From Promethearchaeota archaeon (GTDB lineage Archaea; Asgardarchaeota; Lokiarchaeia; Sigyniarchaeales; SOKP01): DNA of 64,000 bases. Shown piece by piece: positions 35,003 through 43,200 of the stretch; positions within the stretch are counted from its first letter, which is position 1, and every line of letters begins with the position of its first letter. Location: the NCBI GenBank assembly GCA_029838195.1, contig JALGVJ010000004.1, positions 62,001-126,000 on the forward strand, in the 5' to 3' direction. The position numbers were made by a program, and so were the translations under genes. Below the pieces are notes generated by a model. The model worked only from the letters and a program-made list of their open reading frames with translations. It did not search any database and was not told the DNA's origin.

Positions 35003-35929
35003 GTGTTCATGTTTAAAGAGAAATTTCGAAAGGGCATTATTAGTGCTAAACAATTTAATAGGGAAGATCTCGAATATATTTTAAAAAAAGCAAAGGAAAT
35101 GATGAGTATTCAAAATTCCAATATTTTACAAGGAAAGATATTGGCAACCTTATTTTTTGAACCTTCTACAAGGACACGTCTCAGTTTTGAATCGGCGATG
35201 TATCGATTGGGGGGAAAGGTGATAGGATTTCAATCAAGAGAGGTTTCCTCTATCAAGAAAGGAGAATCCCTGGCAGATACCATTAGAACAGTGCAAAATT
35301 ATTGTGATTGCATTGTCATACGGCATTCATTAGAAGGAGCTGCGAAATTGGCTTCAAGATTTGCTAAAGTTCCTATCATTAATGCAGGATCGGGTAGTGG
35401 AGAGCATCCAACGCAAGCTTTACTGGATTTATTTACAATAAAAGAAGAATGTGGTACGATCGATGGATTAAATATCGGGATCATGGGTGATTTAAAATAT
35501 GGAAGAACTGTTCATTCCCTTTCCGTATTATTAATAAATTTTGATGTGAACATATATTTTATTAGTCCAAAAGAATTGGTCATGAGAGATAGCGATAAGG
35601 ATTTTTTACTCTCCCGTCAAGTAAAGGTTAAAGAAATTTTCGATTACAGAAAGGTCTTAGATATTTTAGATGTACTTTACATGACAAGAATTCAAAAAGA
35701 ACGATTTATAGATCCTGAAGAATATGAAAAAATGAAAAATATCTATAAATTCACGGAGAAGGATCTGGAGCTAACTAAAGATAATTTTATTTTACTACAT
35801 CCTCTTCCCCGGGTTACAGAGATTTCTTATAACATAGACAAATATGAAAACAAAGCAAAATATTTTAAGCAAGTATATTATGGATTGCAATTACGAAAGG
35901 CTCTTTTAGCCGAATTATTAGCAGATTAA
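35003..35929 (+). CDS. pyrB: Aspartate carbamoyltransferase catalytic subunit
   Basis: FFEPSTRTRLSFESA, HPTQALLDLFTI, LHPLPRVTEI. Confidence 0.97.
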   Translation: MFMFKEKFRKGIISAKQFNREDLEYILKKAKEMMSIQNSNILQGKILATLFFEPSTRTRLSFESAMYRLGGKVIGFQSREVSSIKKGESLADTIRTVQNYCDCIVIRHSLEGAAKLASRFAKVPIINAGSGSGEHPTQALLDLFTIKEECGTIDGLNIGIMGDLKYGRTVHSLSVLLINFDVNIYFISPKELVMRDSDKDFLLSRQVKVKEIFDYRKVLDILDVLYMTRIQKERFIDPEEYEKMKNIYKFTEKDLELTKDNFILLHPLPRVTEISYNIDKYENKAKYFKQVYYGLQLRKALLAELLAD

Positions 35930-35949
35930 ATCTCTGTAAAATTTTAAAT

Positions 35950-37956
35950 TTATGAATTTTTAATGCTAAAAAATGGGATATTCGACTTGAATAAAAGTCG
36001 CTCTATTTCTCGAACTTCTTGATTGTCAATTGAGGGCATGAACACGTTAAATAATGACCCTCCATTCATGAATTGAGATAGTTTTTCATGTAGTTTAATT
36101 CTTTCTTGTAAGGATAACGATGTTTTTTTCTTTATTAACGTTGTATTGAATTTTATTTGAGAATTTTTCATTTCTCCTCCATATTCCCGATGTTTCTTTA
36201 ATCCTCGATTAAGGACATGAGGTTGAGTTAATGTATAATTGATATTTTCATCTTCTTTCCGCTCTTGAATCAAGGAATTCATTTCTTTTAAGATTTTTAG
36301 TCCAAAATGCATGCTACTTTGAGATTTTTCAAAATCTAGACCACAGTGGGTAATAATGGCTTCCCTAAAGTTAAAAAAACTAATAGATCGTACAGCTGAT
36401 TCCATACATTCTTTTGCGGAATCCTCAAAACATTTAGAAATAAAATAATTCCACCATTTGTTCTTTCCTATTTTTTGAGTAATAAAAGATTCTTTAAAAG
36501 AAAACAATTCAAAAACAGAATTTAACCGATCATCAACTTTTTCAAGAAAAAAATCGTCATTACCTTTAGATAATGATGCTATGGATAGAAGATTTATCAA
36601 AATTTTATCCATAATTAGTTGGTTTGCTATATGATTATTTCTTGTCTCTTTTGATATTTTAATAAGAGCGGAATTTAACAAATTAGAGTATTCATTTACA
36701 TGAAAAATAATGTTATTTTTTCCACCATTGATTAGCCGAATTTTTTGAAGAAAAGAAACTTTATCATTCTTTAAAAATCTAGGTAATTGAATTAAAATTA
36801 ATGGCTTGACAGGAAAACCACCGTAAAAACCCTCATTTTCATTTAAAATTTGAGTGATTTTCTTAAAAAATGTTAAATTCTCCTCATTTTTATCTTGTTC
36901 TTGAAGGCTCTGAGAAAAGTCTAATCCTAAATTCGGAACGAAGGAATCTCTTGTTTTATTTAAAAAATAGGTTATTCGGGATTGTAATACTGATGATATA
37001 ACAGGATTATATGAATGATTTTTGAATTTATCCAAAAAAAATTGATCAAAATCCCCTAAAATAATATCTTCTGAAAAGAATTGAGAGATATTTTCTAAAA
37101 AATCGAAACTTTTTAAGATACATTCGGTAATAGAATGTTGGTCATTATTATTAAGAGGAGGCAGATGTTCTTTTTCTTGAATAAAATTCATTAAATTGTT
37201 TGTATTCAAAAGACAAGAAAAAGGGCGTAAATTCCAAGTATTTAAATGTAATAATAAAATATCATTAGAAAGATATGAATCCGCTAAATTATTTGGTAAT
37301 AAATTTAATAATAAAAATTGTTCAGAAACATCGGAACCTAATTTTTTCAAATAATGTGCGGGCAGAATATTATTATCATTAAATAACTTAAATACCTCAT
37401 GAGGAGGACTTCCCAGACGCGTGAGTTTATGCCTAACTTTCTCAAGGCCATTTTCTATTAAAATTGCGTTAATTAATTCTCTCATCAAGGGGGCAGTAAG
37501 ATATTCTATATTTGTTTTTTGGAGCCTCTCAATAGTCTCATTTGCTATTTTTTTAGCCAAATTTTGCTCCAAATTTCCTTCTTTTATTAAATATTCCTCG
37601 ATTTTTTCGATTTTAAAAGGCTCCTTAGAATACTTTGAAGTTCGTATCATCACTGTTTCATTCTCTTCATTTAAAATATTTTCAATGGTTTCAAGACTTT
37701 TTACCATTTTTTGTCCTAAAGGCGTGAGTAAATAGCCATTTTTAGAGCTCTTAATGAGATTATTATTTTTTAATGTATTCAGGTGGAACGATAAATTAAC
37801 ATTATTCGAATAGTGCATCGAAATTTTCTTCTTTAAATAAGAAAAAGACAGGGGATGAGATGAGCGCTGCAACGATTTCAATAAATTGATTCTAACTTCA
37901 TGGCTAATAATTTTTAATTGCTCTTCTAATAATCGTGCGATTTCGTCGGCGAGCAT
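35950..37956 (-). CDS. HTH + ATP-cone + truncated/degenerate anaerobic ribonucleotide reductase (NrdD)-like protein
   Basis: N-terminal winged HTH (ISHEVRINLLKSLQR...LSFHLNTLKNNNLI), ATP-cone (MIRTSKYSKEPFKIEKIEEYLIKEG), NrdD-like segments (LADSYLSNDILLLHLNTWNLRPF; SLQERIKLHEKLSQFMNGGSLFNVFM), no C-terminal CxxC or glycyl-radical motif. Confidence 0.75.
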   Translation of the reverse strand: MLADEIARLLEEQLKIISHEVRINLLKSLQRSSHPLSFSYLKKKISMHYSNNVNLSFHLNTLKNNNLIKSSKNGYLLTPLGQKMVKSLETIENILNEENETVMIRTSKYSKEPFKIEKIEEYLIKEGNLEQNLAKKIANETIERLQKTNIEYLTAPLMRELINAILIENGLEKVRHKLTRLGSPPHEVFKLFNDNNILPAHYLKKLGSDVSEQFLLLNLLPNNLADSYLSNDILLLHLNTWNLRPFSCLLNTNNLMNFIQEKEHLPPLNNNDQHSITECILKSFDFLENISQFFSEDIILGDFDQFFLDKFKNHSYNPVISSVLQSRITYFLNKTRDSFVPNLGLDFSQSLQEQDKNEENLTFFKKITQILNENEGFYGGFPVKPLILIQLPRFLKNDKVSFLQKIRLINGGKNNIIFHVNEYSNLLNSALIKISKETRNNHIANQLIMDKILINLLSIASLSKGNDDFFLEKVDDRLNSVFELFSFKESFITQKIGKNKWWNYFISKCFEDSAKECMESAVRSISFFNFREAIITHCGLDFEKSQSSMHFGLKILKEMNSLIQERKEDENINYTLTQPHVLNRGLKKHREYGGEMKNSQIKFNTTLIKKKTSLSLQERIKLHEKLSQFMNGGSLFNVFMPSIDNQEVREIERLLFKSNIPFFSIKNS

Positions 37957-38111
37957 CAGTTATTCTGTAATGTCCCAATTTTTTTAGAAAATATCTAAAA
38001 AATAATAGGACTCTTACTTATAAAAAAATTTGGGACAGATCTCATGGAAAATTAAATTCTAATAATATCCCGGTGATATTTTATGAAAAATAGAAAATTT
38101 TTTTGTTTGTC

Positions 38112-40419: not shown

Positions 40420-43200
40420 TTATTTCTTTCTAGATTTAATAAGCTCCAGGTTTTTATCGAGATCAAACATGATATGGACCGATCCGGTGCCTATTGGCGA
40501 CACTTGTCCTACAATAACGTTTTCGGGTATTCCTAATAATCTTTCTTCCTCTCCATAAAGACCGGCATCTAAAAGTTGGTTAACGGTTACTTCGAAGGCA
40601 GCCCTGGCAAAAACGCTTGATTTTGAACCTGAAATCCCGTGTCGGCCAATGGATTGGATGGTTCCTGTACTACACATTAAATCGGCCAGAATTAATAAGT
40701 GACGCAAATCCACGTCTAACCCTTGTTGTTCTAAAACTTTTTGAGATTCTATTATGATTAAGTTACGAGCGGCTTCAATTCCGAATAATTTTTCCACTTC
40801 ATGTAAGTGATTGGAAATGGTTCTTGTAGGATCTACGCCTTCAATTTGAATGGCTCCTTGTAAATTCGTACCTTCGGTTTTAATTACCCATTCATTTCCA
40901 TCTTCGGTAGGGGTGAGAAGACCCCTTTTAATTCCTCTTATTCCTTTTATTACTTTTTTTAATATTTTTTCACGCAATTTTTGTAAACTCTGTAGATCTT
41001 CTATACCGGGGTCAATGATGATAGAATTCTTTTCTCTCTTGATAGTTCCTTTTTTCTTATACCTCTTTAAAATTTCGGGAATTTCATCAACATTAATCCC
41101 TTTTTTTTCACAAAGTTCGGGTATGAGATTTACCACGATATTCCAATTCACGAAATCAATATCCGCATCCGAGGTGATTTGCTCAATTCGTATTTGCTCA
41201 ATTCGATTATGTACCTTTATCGCTTCTTCTTCGCTCTTGTTATAAGGCTCTTCTAAATATATCGTCATCTGAGGAGTACTAGGAAATCTACGAGCATCTA
41301 CGATTTCGATTAAACGTGGAAGACCTTGCGTTACTGAAAACTCTTCTACGCCAGCGTAGTGAAATGTCCGTAATGTATTATGGGTAATTAAACCCTCCGC
41401 TGTAGTGAAATTTTCATGATTTTCAATTGAAAAATCGTATAAATATGGTGTAGGTGATTTTATTAATCTAATAGAAATAATTTCATCCCATATAATATCA
41501 CTTTGCAATGCTTTATGTAGAATATTCAATTCCTCGCTGATATCGATGCCCTCTTCTTTTGCCCTTCGTTCAAATATTTTTATATACCGATGAAGGGTTT
41601 GGCGTCTGATTTTTTGCTTGCGAGTATATTTTTTAATACTTGCTGCTAAAGCAGAATGCGCATCTATTTTTAATTTCATGTAGAGATTATTTAAAACTTT
41701 TCCAAATCCCGGAATTATATCTAAGCTATCACGTGATGAATCTTTTGATAGCTCTCTCTCCACTATTTTATTTAAAATAATATTCTTTTCAGATATGATT
41801 GAGCCAATTTTTTTCTTATATGTTGGAGCATATTTTCCTGAAATCCTTAAACAATAACAATTTTTTTCCTTGAATTTTGAAGCAATTATTCCAAATCTAG
41901 ATAATAATAAGCATATCCCATCTCTTAATTCCTTGGAACTTGTACTTGCCCTAATTTGCATTCTTTCGGCAGAAAAATTACCATCTCCATCAAAATAGGC
42001 TTGAAGTAACCCGGCTATAAAATCATCAGGCGCATTTAATGCCCACGAGGGTATAAATTTATTTCTTGCTCCTTTTCCGCAAAGTCTTTTAAAAATTGTT
42101 CCCAATAATGATGAAGAAAGAATAATTGATGAATTTGGTCCAAATTCTCCTTTTTCTTCATTTAAACTCCAAGAAATAGAATAGCTATTCGCAAAATCTA
42201 ATACTCGCTTCTTAAAATTTTCATCAATATTGGTTAATGCTATGAAATTTCCGGCATTAGTTCCTTCAGATAAATATGCTCCCATGATCCAACCAAAAGA
42301 AAAATTAAGAGGTAATTTATCCGGAATTACTATATTCGGATTCGAACAGGTTTTAGGATATATCTGACTATCTTGAAGCAAATCATTTTTCCCGGTTTTT
42401 AACGCTTTTAGTAATCCATTTACTCCAACTGGGATAGTATATTCTATATTGAATTCTTCCTTCCGGTTTCTTCCCATCCAATCTTTTGATTCTTTAACTG
42501 CATTTAACTCGGAACCAAACCAAGCCTCTTTTTTTGATACGTATTGTTTGATGTCCATGAAATCGATGGGATCTTCTGTCGGCAGATTTTTTATTAAGGG
42601 AATCCGATCTCCTATTTTTAATGTTCGCCCCTCGACAGGAATAATTTTATTATTTTTTCTCATCAAAAATGAATGTGAAAGGGTTGCCTCTATACTTCTA
42701 CCCGAACGTGTCTTTATCCTCAAAATTTCTCGTTTAGCAGGATGTCTACTTACTTGTTGAATGCGCCCCCAGTGAATCTTTTCATCTTGACCTAAACAAG
42801 GAACTTTTATTTCCTTAGAATCTAAATTTAATACTTCACAGTCGCCAACATGTTCTAAAATTTCTGCGTTTGACATTAATTCATCAATAAAATCTCCAAT
42901 ATTCAAGATTTTAGTATAGTTTCCCTCTTTTATGATTACTTTTTCTGTTCCCGGAATGCTCATCTGTGTTCCCGGTTCGCCAATAGATTGTGCGGCTACC
43001 GTGCCGACAGGTTCAGAAGCTTCCACGATTGCATTGGTATAATTAATGAAAATTTTATTCAAGAAATATTCTAATTGCTCTTCCTCTAAGTCTTCATCCT
43101 TAATTTTATCTCTAATCTTATCGATTAAATCTTCAGGAATACCATCTTCTTTCAATTCTTGTAATTTTTCTTCCAAAAACTTTTTTGTTACTTTTACCAT
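40420..43200 (-). CDS. rpoA2: DNA-directed RNA polymerase subunit A'' interrupted by an intein
   Basis: Exteins ...AAQSIGEPGTQM / TLRTFHYAGVEEFSVTQGLPRLIEI...; in-frame 528-aa insert. Confidence 0.97.
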   Translation of the reverse strand: MVKVTKKFLEEKLQELKEDGIPEDLIDKIRDKIKDEDLEEEQLEYFLNKIFINYTNAIVEASEPVGTVAAQSIGEPGTQMSIPGTEKVIIKEGNYTKILNIGDFIDELMSNAEILEHVGDCEVLNLDSKEIKVPCLGQDEKIHWGRIQQVSRHPAKREILRIKTRSGRSIEATLSHSFLMRKNNKIIPVEGRTLKIGDRIPLIKNLPTEDPIDFMDIKQYVSKKEAWFGSELNAVKESKDWMGRNRKEEFNIEYTIPVGVNGLLKALKTGKNDLLQDSQIYPKTCSNPNIVIPDKLPLNFSFGWIMGAYLSEGTNAGNFIALTNIDENFKKRVLDFANSYSISWSLNEEKGEFGPNSSIILSSSLLGTIFKRLCGKGARNKFIPSWALNAPDDFIAGLLQAYFDGDGNFSAERMQIRASTSSKELRDGICLLLSRFGIIASKFKEKNCYCLRISGKYAPTYKKKIGSIISEKNIILNKIVERELSKDSSRDSLDIIPGFGKVLNNLYMKLKIDAHSALAASIKKYTRKQKIRRQTLHRYIKIFERRAKEEGIDISEELNILHKALQSDIIWDEIISIRLIKSPTPYLYDFSIENHENFTTAEGLITHNTLRTFHYAGVEEFSVTQGLPRLIEIVDARRFPSTPQMTIYLEEPYNKSEEEAIKVHNRIEQIRIEQITSDADIDFVNWNIVVNLIPELCEKKGINVDEIPEILKRYKKKGTIKREKNSIIIDPGIEDLQSLQKLREKILKKVIKGIRGIKRGLLTPTEDGNEWVIKTEGTNLQGAIQIEGVDPTRTISNHLHEVEKLFGIEAARNLIIIESQKVLEQQGLDVDLRHLLILADLMCSTGTIQSIGRHGISGSKSSVFARAAFEVTVNQLLDAGLYGEEERLLGIPENVIVGQVSPIGTGSVHIMFDLDKNLELIKSRKK
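41377..42960 (-). mobile_element. Intein with LAGLIDADG homing endonuclease in RpoA''
   Basis: Starts Ser (SIPGTEKVIIKEG), block B ATLSHSFL, LAGLIDADG-like FGWIMGAYLSEG and IAGLLQAYFDGDG, ends LITHN followed by Thr; boundaries read from codons. Confidence 0.95.

Follow-up and report, generated by a model that had tools for sequence, protein, structure and literature searches.

A catalytically dead class III ribonucleotide reductase with a winged helix, encoded beside pyrB, as a probable nucleotide-responsive transcription regulator of archaea

When a protein resembles a class III ribonucleotide reductase (RNR), carries a winged helix at its N-terminus and stops short of the glycyl-radical segment, is it still an enzyme, and if not, what has it become? 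The question is raised by a 668-aa open reading frame in the window (the whole stretch of 64,000 nucleotides of DNA that was analysed), which belongs to a genome of 4.5 Mb in 94 contigs, assigned to the Lokiarchaeota/Lokiarchaeia by its named homologues. A sequence-only reading of the DNA had described a winged helix-turn-helix (HTH), an ATP-cone and landmarks of the anaerobic reductase NrdD, and had inferred a dead reductase reused as a dNTP/ATP-sensing transcription regulator. The gene, its parts and its neighbour were located as follows.

35950..37956, minus strand: ORF of the proposed dead-NrdD regulator, 668 aa, ATG start, stop codon at 35950-35952
37696..37923, minus strand: N-terminal winged HTH, residues 12-87 (PF24038, HTH_45/ArsR-like; Pfam E 1.5e-10)
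37381..37653, minus strand: ATP-cone, residues 102-192 (Pfam match to residues 103-174 plus invariant residues)
35953..37380, minus strand: NrdD-fold core, residues 193-668 (PF13597, AlphaFold/Foldseek and motif table)
36580..36597, minus strand: retained 'INLLSI', residues 454-459, equivalent of the NrdD NLPR strand (motif table)
35003..35929, plus strand: pyrB, aspartate carbamoyltransferase catalytic chain, start probably the ATG at 35009 (orthologous neighbour annotated OTCace_N/OTCace)

The observed domain build agreed with the sequence-only reading, and both NrdD landmark peptides that it quoted are present. The PF24038 match of the window protein was above the Pfam cut-off, as was that of the NRDD profile PF13597 (residues 453-666, profile positions 283-505 of 562, E 2e-18). 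The ATP-cone match (E 8e-4) was under the cut-off by itself; despite this score, the cone has residues that are invariant in all relatives. An AlphaFold model built from 76 sequences (pLDDT 81.4, pTM 0.73) was compared with the PDB using Foldseek, a check against class III RNR that had been proposed beforehand, and the first 36 matches were all class III NrdD, the best being 8p28 (P. copri NrdD; E 2.4e-19, TM 0.56-0.58). The model of a Culexmicrobium homologue, which has kept the Zn tail, gave a stronger NrdD match (E 2e-27, TM by target up to 0.77), so that the whole NrdD scaffold was confirmed by two models. The window protein ends, as had been claimed, at the point where intact NrdDs run on into 'YFAYSPDFTYCPHC...RVTGYY', a CxxC...CxxC...RVTGYY module. 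No CxxC pair or RVxGY motif was found past the stop in any frame of the downstream sequence of the window. That sequence holds only pyrB, which converges tail-to-tail with the gene, as first described, across a gap of 20 bp (35930-35949), and therefore no frameshift conceals a radical domain. A hidden intact C-terminus, which would have refuted the idea of a dead reductase, was thereby ruled out; the other refuting condition, a lack of likeness to NrdD beyond the ATP-cone, does not hold either.

Loss of catalysis was observed across the family in a motif table in which members were set against intact archaeal NrdDs. The finger-loop cysteine (CCR/GCR), the NxN flap and the PAE loop are absent from 36 of 36 family rows and the RV(T/C)GY motif from all members, whereas the intact archaeal NrdDs keep the catalytic motifs; four intact rows (L166-L169) were misaligned at the finger column, yet carry MCCR. 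Among the family rows, RGGQ is kept only in L145; the (I/V/L)N part of the NLPR strand persists. The Zn module (two CxxC) persists in most members outside Lokiarchaeia; in these the radical Gly has given way to N or S, has shifted or is missing. Lokiarchaeia have the module only in reduced form or not at all, and the window protein lacks it. The whole C-terminal module was lost late, in Lokiarchaeia and some others. The Zn-ribbon tail of most non-Loki members, together with a Gly close to the radical position in a few (L125 RSIGPY, L129 RNIGHY, L143 RLTGPY), could suggest a glycyl-radical or reductase enzyme of altered chemistry. We regard this as very improbable: sister groups have N or S in place of that Gly or lack it, no member retains the finger-loop Cys, NxN flap or PAE loop, nothing of the module is left in the window protein, and aerobic ammonia oxidisers have retained the gene.

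Complete chromosomes were informative on the same point. No other NrdD match was found in those of Prometheoarchaeum MK-D1 and Lokiarchaeum ossiferum, nor in the Harpocratesius genome, and all three have a class II RNR. The MK-D1 member is an ORF at about 4245266-4247446 on the minus strand of NZ_CP042905.1. Separate reductases had been named as a check on the window's own genome: no intact NrdD was found there, and a class II RNR lies on contig C34 (missed by a six-frame search with PF02867 and found with PF17975). Intact NrdD was also not found in the aerobic ammonia oxidisers. The dead protein occurs together with a separate intact NrdD in several Bathyarchaeota-like, Baldr-, Jord- and Freyarchaeota genomes, and both kinds are held by many Thermoproteota and non-Loki Asgard genomes. 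A catalytic class III RNR was rejected for the window protein, given the missing catalytic motifs and the closed Loki genomes that carry the family without an intact NrdD. The family is a homologue, not a functional member, of class III RNR, and the earlier inference of a catalytically dead reductase is strongly supported.

What remains of the enzyme may point to what it senses. The mean majority-residue frequency was 0.73 in the ATP-cone, 0.68 at the cone-barrel junction, 0.59 in the HTH and 0.35 in the N-terminal half of the barrel. Invariant positions comprise R105, T106, S107, E112, F114, Y152, P156, R159, E160, R175, T179, R180 and G182 in the cone, and R22, H58 and L62 in the HTH, whose recognition helix is conserved (76 aligned sequences). 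In the P. copri NrdD, Lys7, Arg8, Arg87 and Arg91 of the cone neutralise the nucleotide phosphates, and the NxN flap and the loop after the third-last strand hold the substrate (PMC11226230). Since the cone residues are conserved and the flap and substrate loop are gone, the activity (a-) site seems to survive in the dead family and the substrate site to be lost; the specificity site looks degenerate. The canonical KRDGR phosphate lid of the cone is replaced by R-T-S without exception in the aligned set, and the choice of nucleotide may differ with it.

Homologues (E < 1e-80) were found in 33 of 37 same-family genomes, one of them a fragment and most full-length with the same end point; the four genomes without a homologue are 61-78% complete. 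A protein-alignment scan returned 296 relatives, the best 80 of which include Lokiarchaeota, Prometheoarchaeum syntrophicum MK-D1, Lokiarchaeum ossiferum and Harpocratesius, together with Jord-, Frey-, Baldr- and Helarchaeota, Culexmicrobium, Methanomethylicota and Bathyarchaeota. When 251 genomes from the phylum of a Bathyarchaeota genome were scanned with a profile of the HTH and cone, 172 gave a match, five of the matched genomes being ammonia oxidisers by AmoA; most listed matches cover both domains within open frames of about 540-840 codons, and not all matches at the loose end need be full members. In a tree calculated without the HTH, all 26 sampled members fell on one side of a branch with SH-aLRT support of 100, the other side holding 14 rows of the catalytic type together with a second dead lineage, which arose later. 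The family has a single origin. Its subgroups mostly track host taxonomy, so the HTH-NrdD fusion is old; transfer among archaeal groups cannot be excluded. What the window carries is a widespread conserved archaeal family and not a local oddity, and a local pseudogene was rejected on the 33 of 37 genomes and the one clade. A relict in decay, left over from a class III RNR that was lost, could call on the stepwise loss of the C-terminus and the fast evolution of the barrel. It is hardly credible and is refuted in the main by the conservation pattern, the cone and HTH being strongly conserved, the reading frames intact in nearly all of about 100 relatives and the clade single and ancient.

Other dead NrdDs came to light beside this family. 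The second lineage of the tree is an independent dead NrdD of 602-625 aa (L053:7141-8958, equal to G000:C89:77140-78957; also in L051, L057 and L059), which has an ATP-cone and barrel, lacks the HTH, finger Cys and radical module, and derives from the Loki catalytic NrdD. It is followed on the same strand, in four genomes, by a gene for a Gtr1/RagA-like GTPase (L053:9139-10551 in L053), and it is possible that the two are partners, the dead NrdD sensing nucleotides for a Rag-type GTPase. L058 (L058:1309-3534, from a same-order genome), which had been picked as a 'catalytic' row of the motif table, turned out to be a further dead NrdD, with Gly changed to Asp (KITDYY), no finger-loop Cys and one CxxC left. 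A Thermoprotei genome (G064) encodes a second HTH plus NrdD-like paralogue on a long branch (L195:1024-3264) in addition to the main member and an intact NrdD.

Gene neighbourhoods supplied the main argument for function. Aspartate carbamoyltransferase, the product of pyrB, performs the first committed step of pyrimidine synthesis. Among 80 loci, 68 have pyrB right next to the family gene (62 convergent, five directly upstream on the same strand, with gaps of 7-46 bp in four of these, and one downstream) and two more have it within 2.3 kb; in eight of the ten loci without it, the contig ends within 4 kb of the family gene. Among 20 further Thermoproteota loci, three have a convergent pyrB and five (L248-L250, L252 and L253) a head-to-head one, the two starts there being 26-301 bp apart or the genes overlapping slightly. 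Neither pyrB nor an RNR gene was found nearby at L125 and L129 (Jord- and Freyarchaeota), L237, L239, L240 and L251. In four arrangements, pyrB is a conserved partner and not a chance neighbour. At five loci (L126, L130, L136, L143 and L242), pyrB and pyrI form no operon, pyrB converging with the family gene and diverging from pyrI; the genes after pyrI include A-type ATPase subunits in several of them.

The commonest arrangement, being convergent, provides no shared promoter, and this counts against transcriptional regulation, as do the members with neither gene nearby and the lack of an established operator. The convergent arrangement leaves room for regulation at the protein level, in which the dead NrdD would bind and tune aspartate carbamoyltransferase or RNR by sensing nucleotides and the HTH would serve assembly only; the constancy of the pyrB adjacency, and the nucleotide-driven oligomerisation known for RNR cones (PMC11226230), would both fit. 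We nevertheless consider this explanation unlikely, because the conservation of an ArsR/HTH_45-type winged helix, with R22, H58 and L62 invariant, is difficult to account for without DNA and because regulator-target pairs are typically placed head-to-head, as the family gene and pyrB are in five genomes.

A second partner is RNR itself. In five AmoA-positive single-contig genomes, the family gene lies directly upstream of an RNR large chain (PF02867 with an ATP-cone) on the same strand, and in one ammonia oxidiser the order is regulator-RNR-pyrB. At three Bathyarchaeota-like loci (L234-L236), an intact nrdD is 570-580 bp away on the same strand. This proximity, the co-occurrence of dead and intact NrdD in many Thermoproteota and non-Loki Asgard genomes, and the position beside an RNR gene in ammonia oxidisers could also reflect an activity switch for the catalytic enzyme, made of hetero-oligomers of dead with live NrdD or of dead NrdD with class II RNR, the HTH being secondary. 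The closed Loki genomes and the ammonia oxidisers, however, have no NrdD to pair with, and both the pyrB link and the HTH would be left unexplained; we think such a switch improbable. That the family gene is found repeatedly, and in varied orientations, beside the gene for the first pyrimidine step or beside RNR genes points to nucleotide supply as the context of the family.

Two features upstream of the gene were considered in the search for an operator.

38015..38032, minus strand: putative TATA/BRE region of the gene, inferred from position and conservation
38061..38079, minus strand: conserved upstream element ATATCACCGGGATATTATT, tandem ATATYAYC N3 ATATYAYY, from conservation in Loki loci

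The tandem element stands about 120 bp upstream of the gene in most Loki genomes. Genome-wide in G000, 32 sites with at most one mismatch were counted against 9 for the reversed control, an excess lying before unrelated genes, and the element was therefore not claimed as the regulator's own operator; it resembles a binding site for a different regulator of broad reach. In a promoter scan of limited extent, palindromic EM on the upstream regions of pyrB and the family gene yielded no shared operator; it returned AT-rich palindromes resembling TATA boxes and, ahead of the family gene, one strong element, which is the tandem repeat. A palindrome-like TTATTTACATAATGTTAATAA at pyrB of several relatives was likewise not claimed, being absent in the window and sitting where an AT-rich initiator would. 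Elsewhere in the window, the RNA polymerase large-subunit gene (40420-43200, minus strand) seems to hold an in-frame intein, the insert ending '...DFSIENHENFTTAEGLITHN' before TLRTFHYAGV; relatives have shorter uninterrupted versions.

Taken with the observed domain build, catalytic-motif loss, single origin, conservation pattern and neighbourhoods, the best explanation, to which we assign a probability of roughly 0.7, is a (d)NTP-responsive transcription regulator of pyrimidine and dNTP synthesis made from a class III RNR that lost its chemistry. The N-terminal winged helix would bind DNA, and the ATP-cone would read the cellular ATP/dATP or a related nucleotide state; both activities are inferred. 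The dead NrdD barrel would serve as dimerisation and allosteric body, and a nucleotide-driven change in cone arrangement or oligomer state might be passed to paired HTHs, by inference from NrdR (PMC9110341, PMC12176259). The presumed targets are nucleotide-supply genes, foremost pyrB, joined in other lineages by an RNR gene. Within the window, the protein would most likely control pyrB, and perhaps itself, turning pyrimidine synthesis up or down with nucleotide pools. The direction of regulation is inferred, and repression at high dATP is a guess by analogy with NrdR. The transcription regulator first proposed from the letters alone is therefore favoured by the conserved HTH, the hyper-conserved cone and fitting neighbourhoods, its DNA and ligand binding remaining inferences. 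Whether it is, more broadly, an archaeal counterpart of NrdR and a pyrimidine regulator, an ancient protein coupling (d)NTP pools to transcription of pyrB and RNR across much of the archaeal domain and perhaps predating the Asgard/Thermoproteota split, we judge to be evenly balanced.

No known regulator of RNR or pyrimidine synthesis was found for most archaea, and a protein with an HTH, an ATP-cone and a dead RNR, encoded beside pyrB or RNR genes, is a direct candidate for it in Asgard archaea and in culturable ammonia oxidisers. The family also offers a whole ribonucleotide reductase turned sensor with surviving intermediates, from the Zn module kept without its radical Gly in most lineages to the loss of the entire module in most Lokiarchaeia. 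NCBIfam matches of the family are all below the curated cut-off; some family genes may bear the name 'anaerobic ribonucleoside-triphosphate reductase', which would mislead inferences on archaeal dNTP metabolism. No described HTH-NrdD regulator or RNR-based case was found in the open-access literature (arCOG-type annotations and subscription papers were outside the scope), and to our knowledge this is the first known regulator to join a dead enzyme on an RNR scaffold to a winged HTH.

Among known systems, the closest in build are the class III NrdDs of Prevotella copri (8p28/8p2c), Streptococcus thermophilus (9d3x), Thermotoga maritima (4coi) and phage T4 (1h78), in which, as in the family, an ATP-cone is followed by the NrdD barrel; homology is supported by profile, fold and tree. 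The family differs in adding an N-terminal winged HTH, in lacking the finger-loop Cys, NxN flap, PAE loop and glycyl radical (and, in the window protein, the Zn module), and in coexisting with other RNRs. The bacterial RNR repressor NrdR (Zn-ribbon and ATP-cone), which is rare in archaea (PMC9110341, PMC12176259), shares the logic of an ATP-cone coupled to a DNA-binding domain and aimed at RNR expression. The family has a winged HTH instead of the N-terminal Zn-ribbon (two CxxC), measures about 535-780 aa instead of about 150, has a whole dead reductase attached and has pyrB as its main genomic partner; the NrdR-like logic on an NrdD scaffold envisaged at the outset is thus upheld, in an unrelated build that is not a member of NrdR. 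Bacillus subtilis PurR joins a winged HTH to an inactive phosphoribosyltransferase, and ROK repressors join an HTH to a sugar-kinase fold. The principle is the same as that proposed here, a DNA-binding domain fused to a metabolic enzyme that has lost catalysis, senses the ligands it once used and governs the pathway it came from, although the folds and ligands are unrelated.
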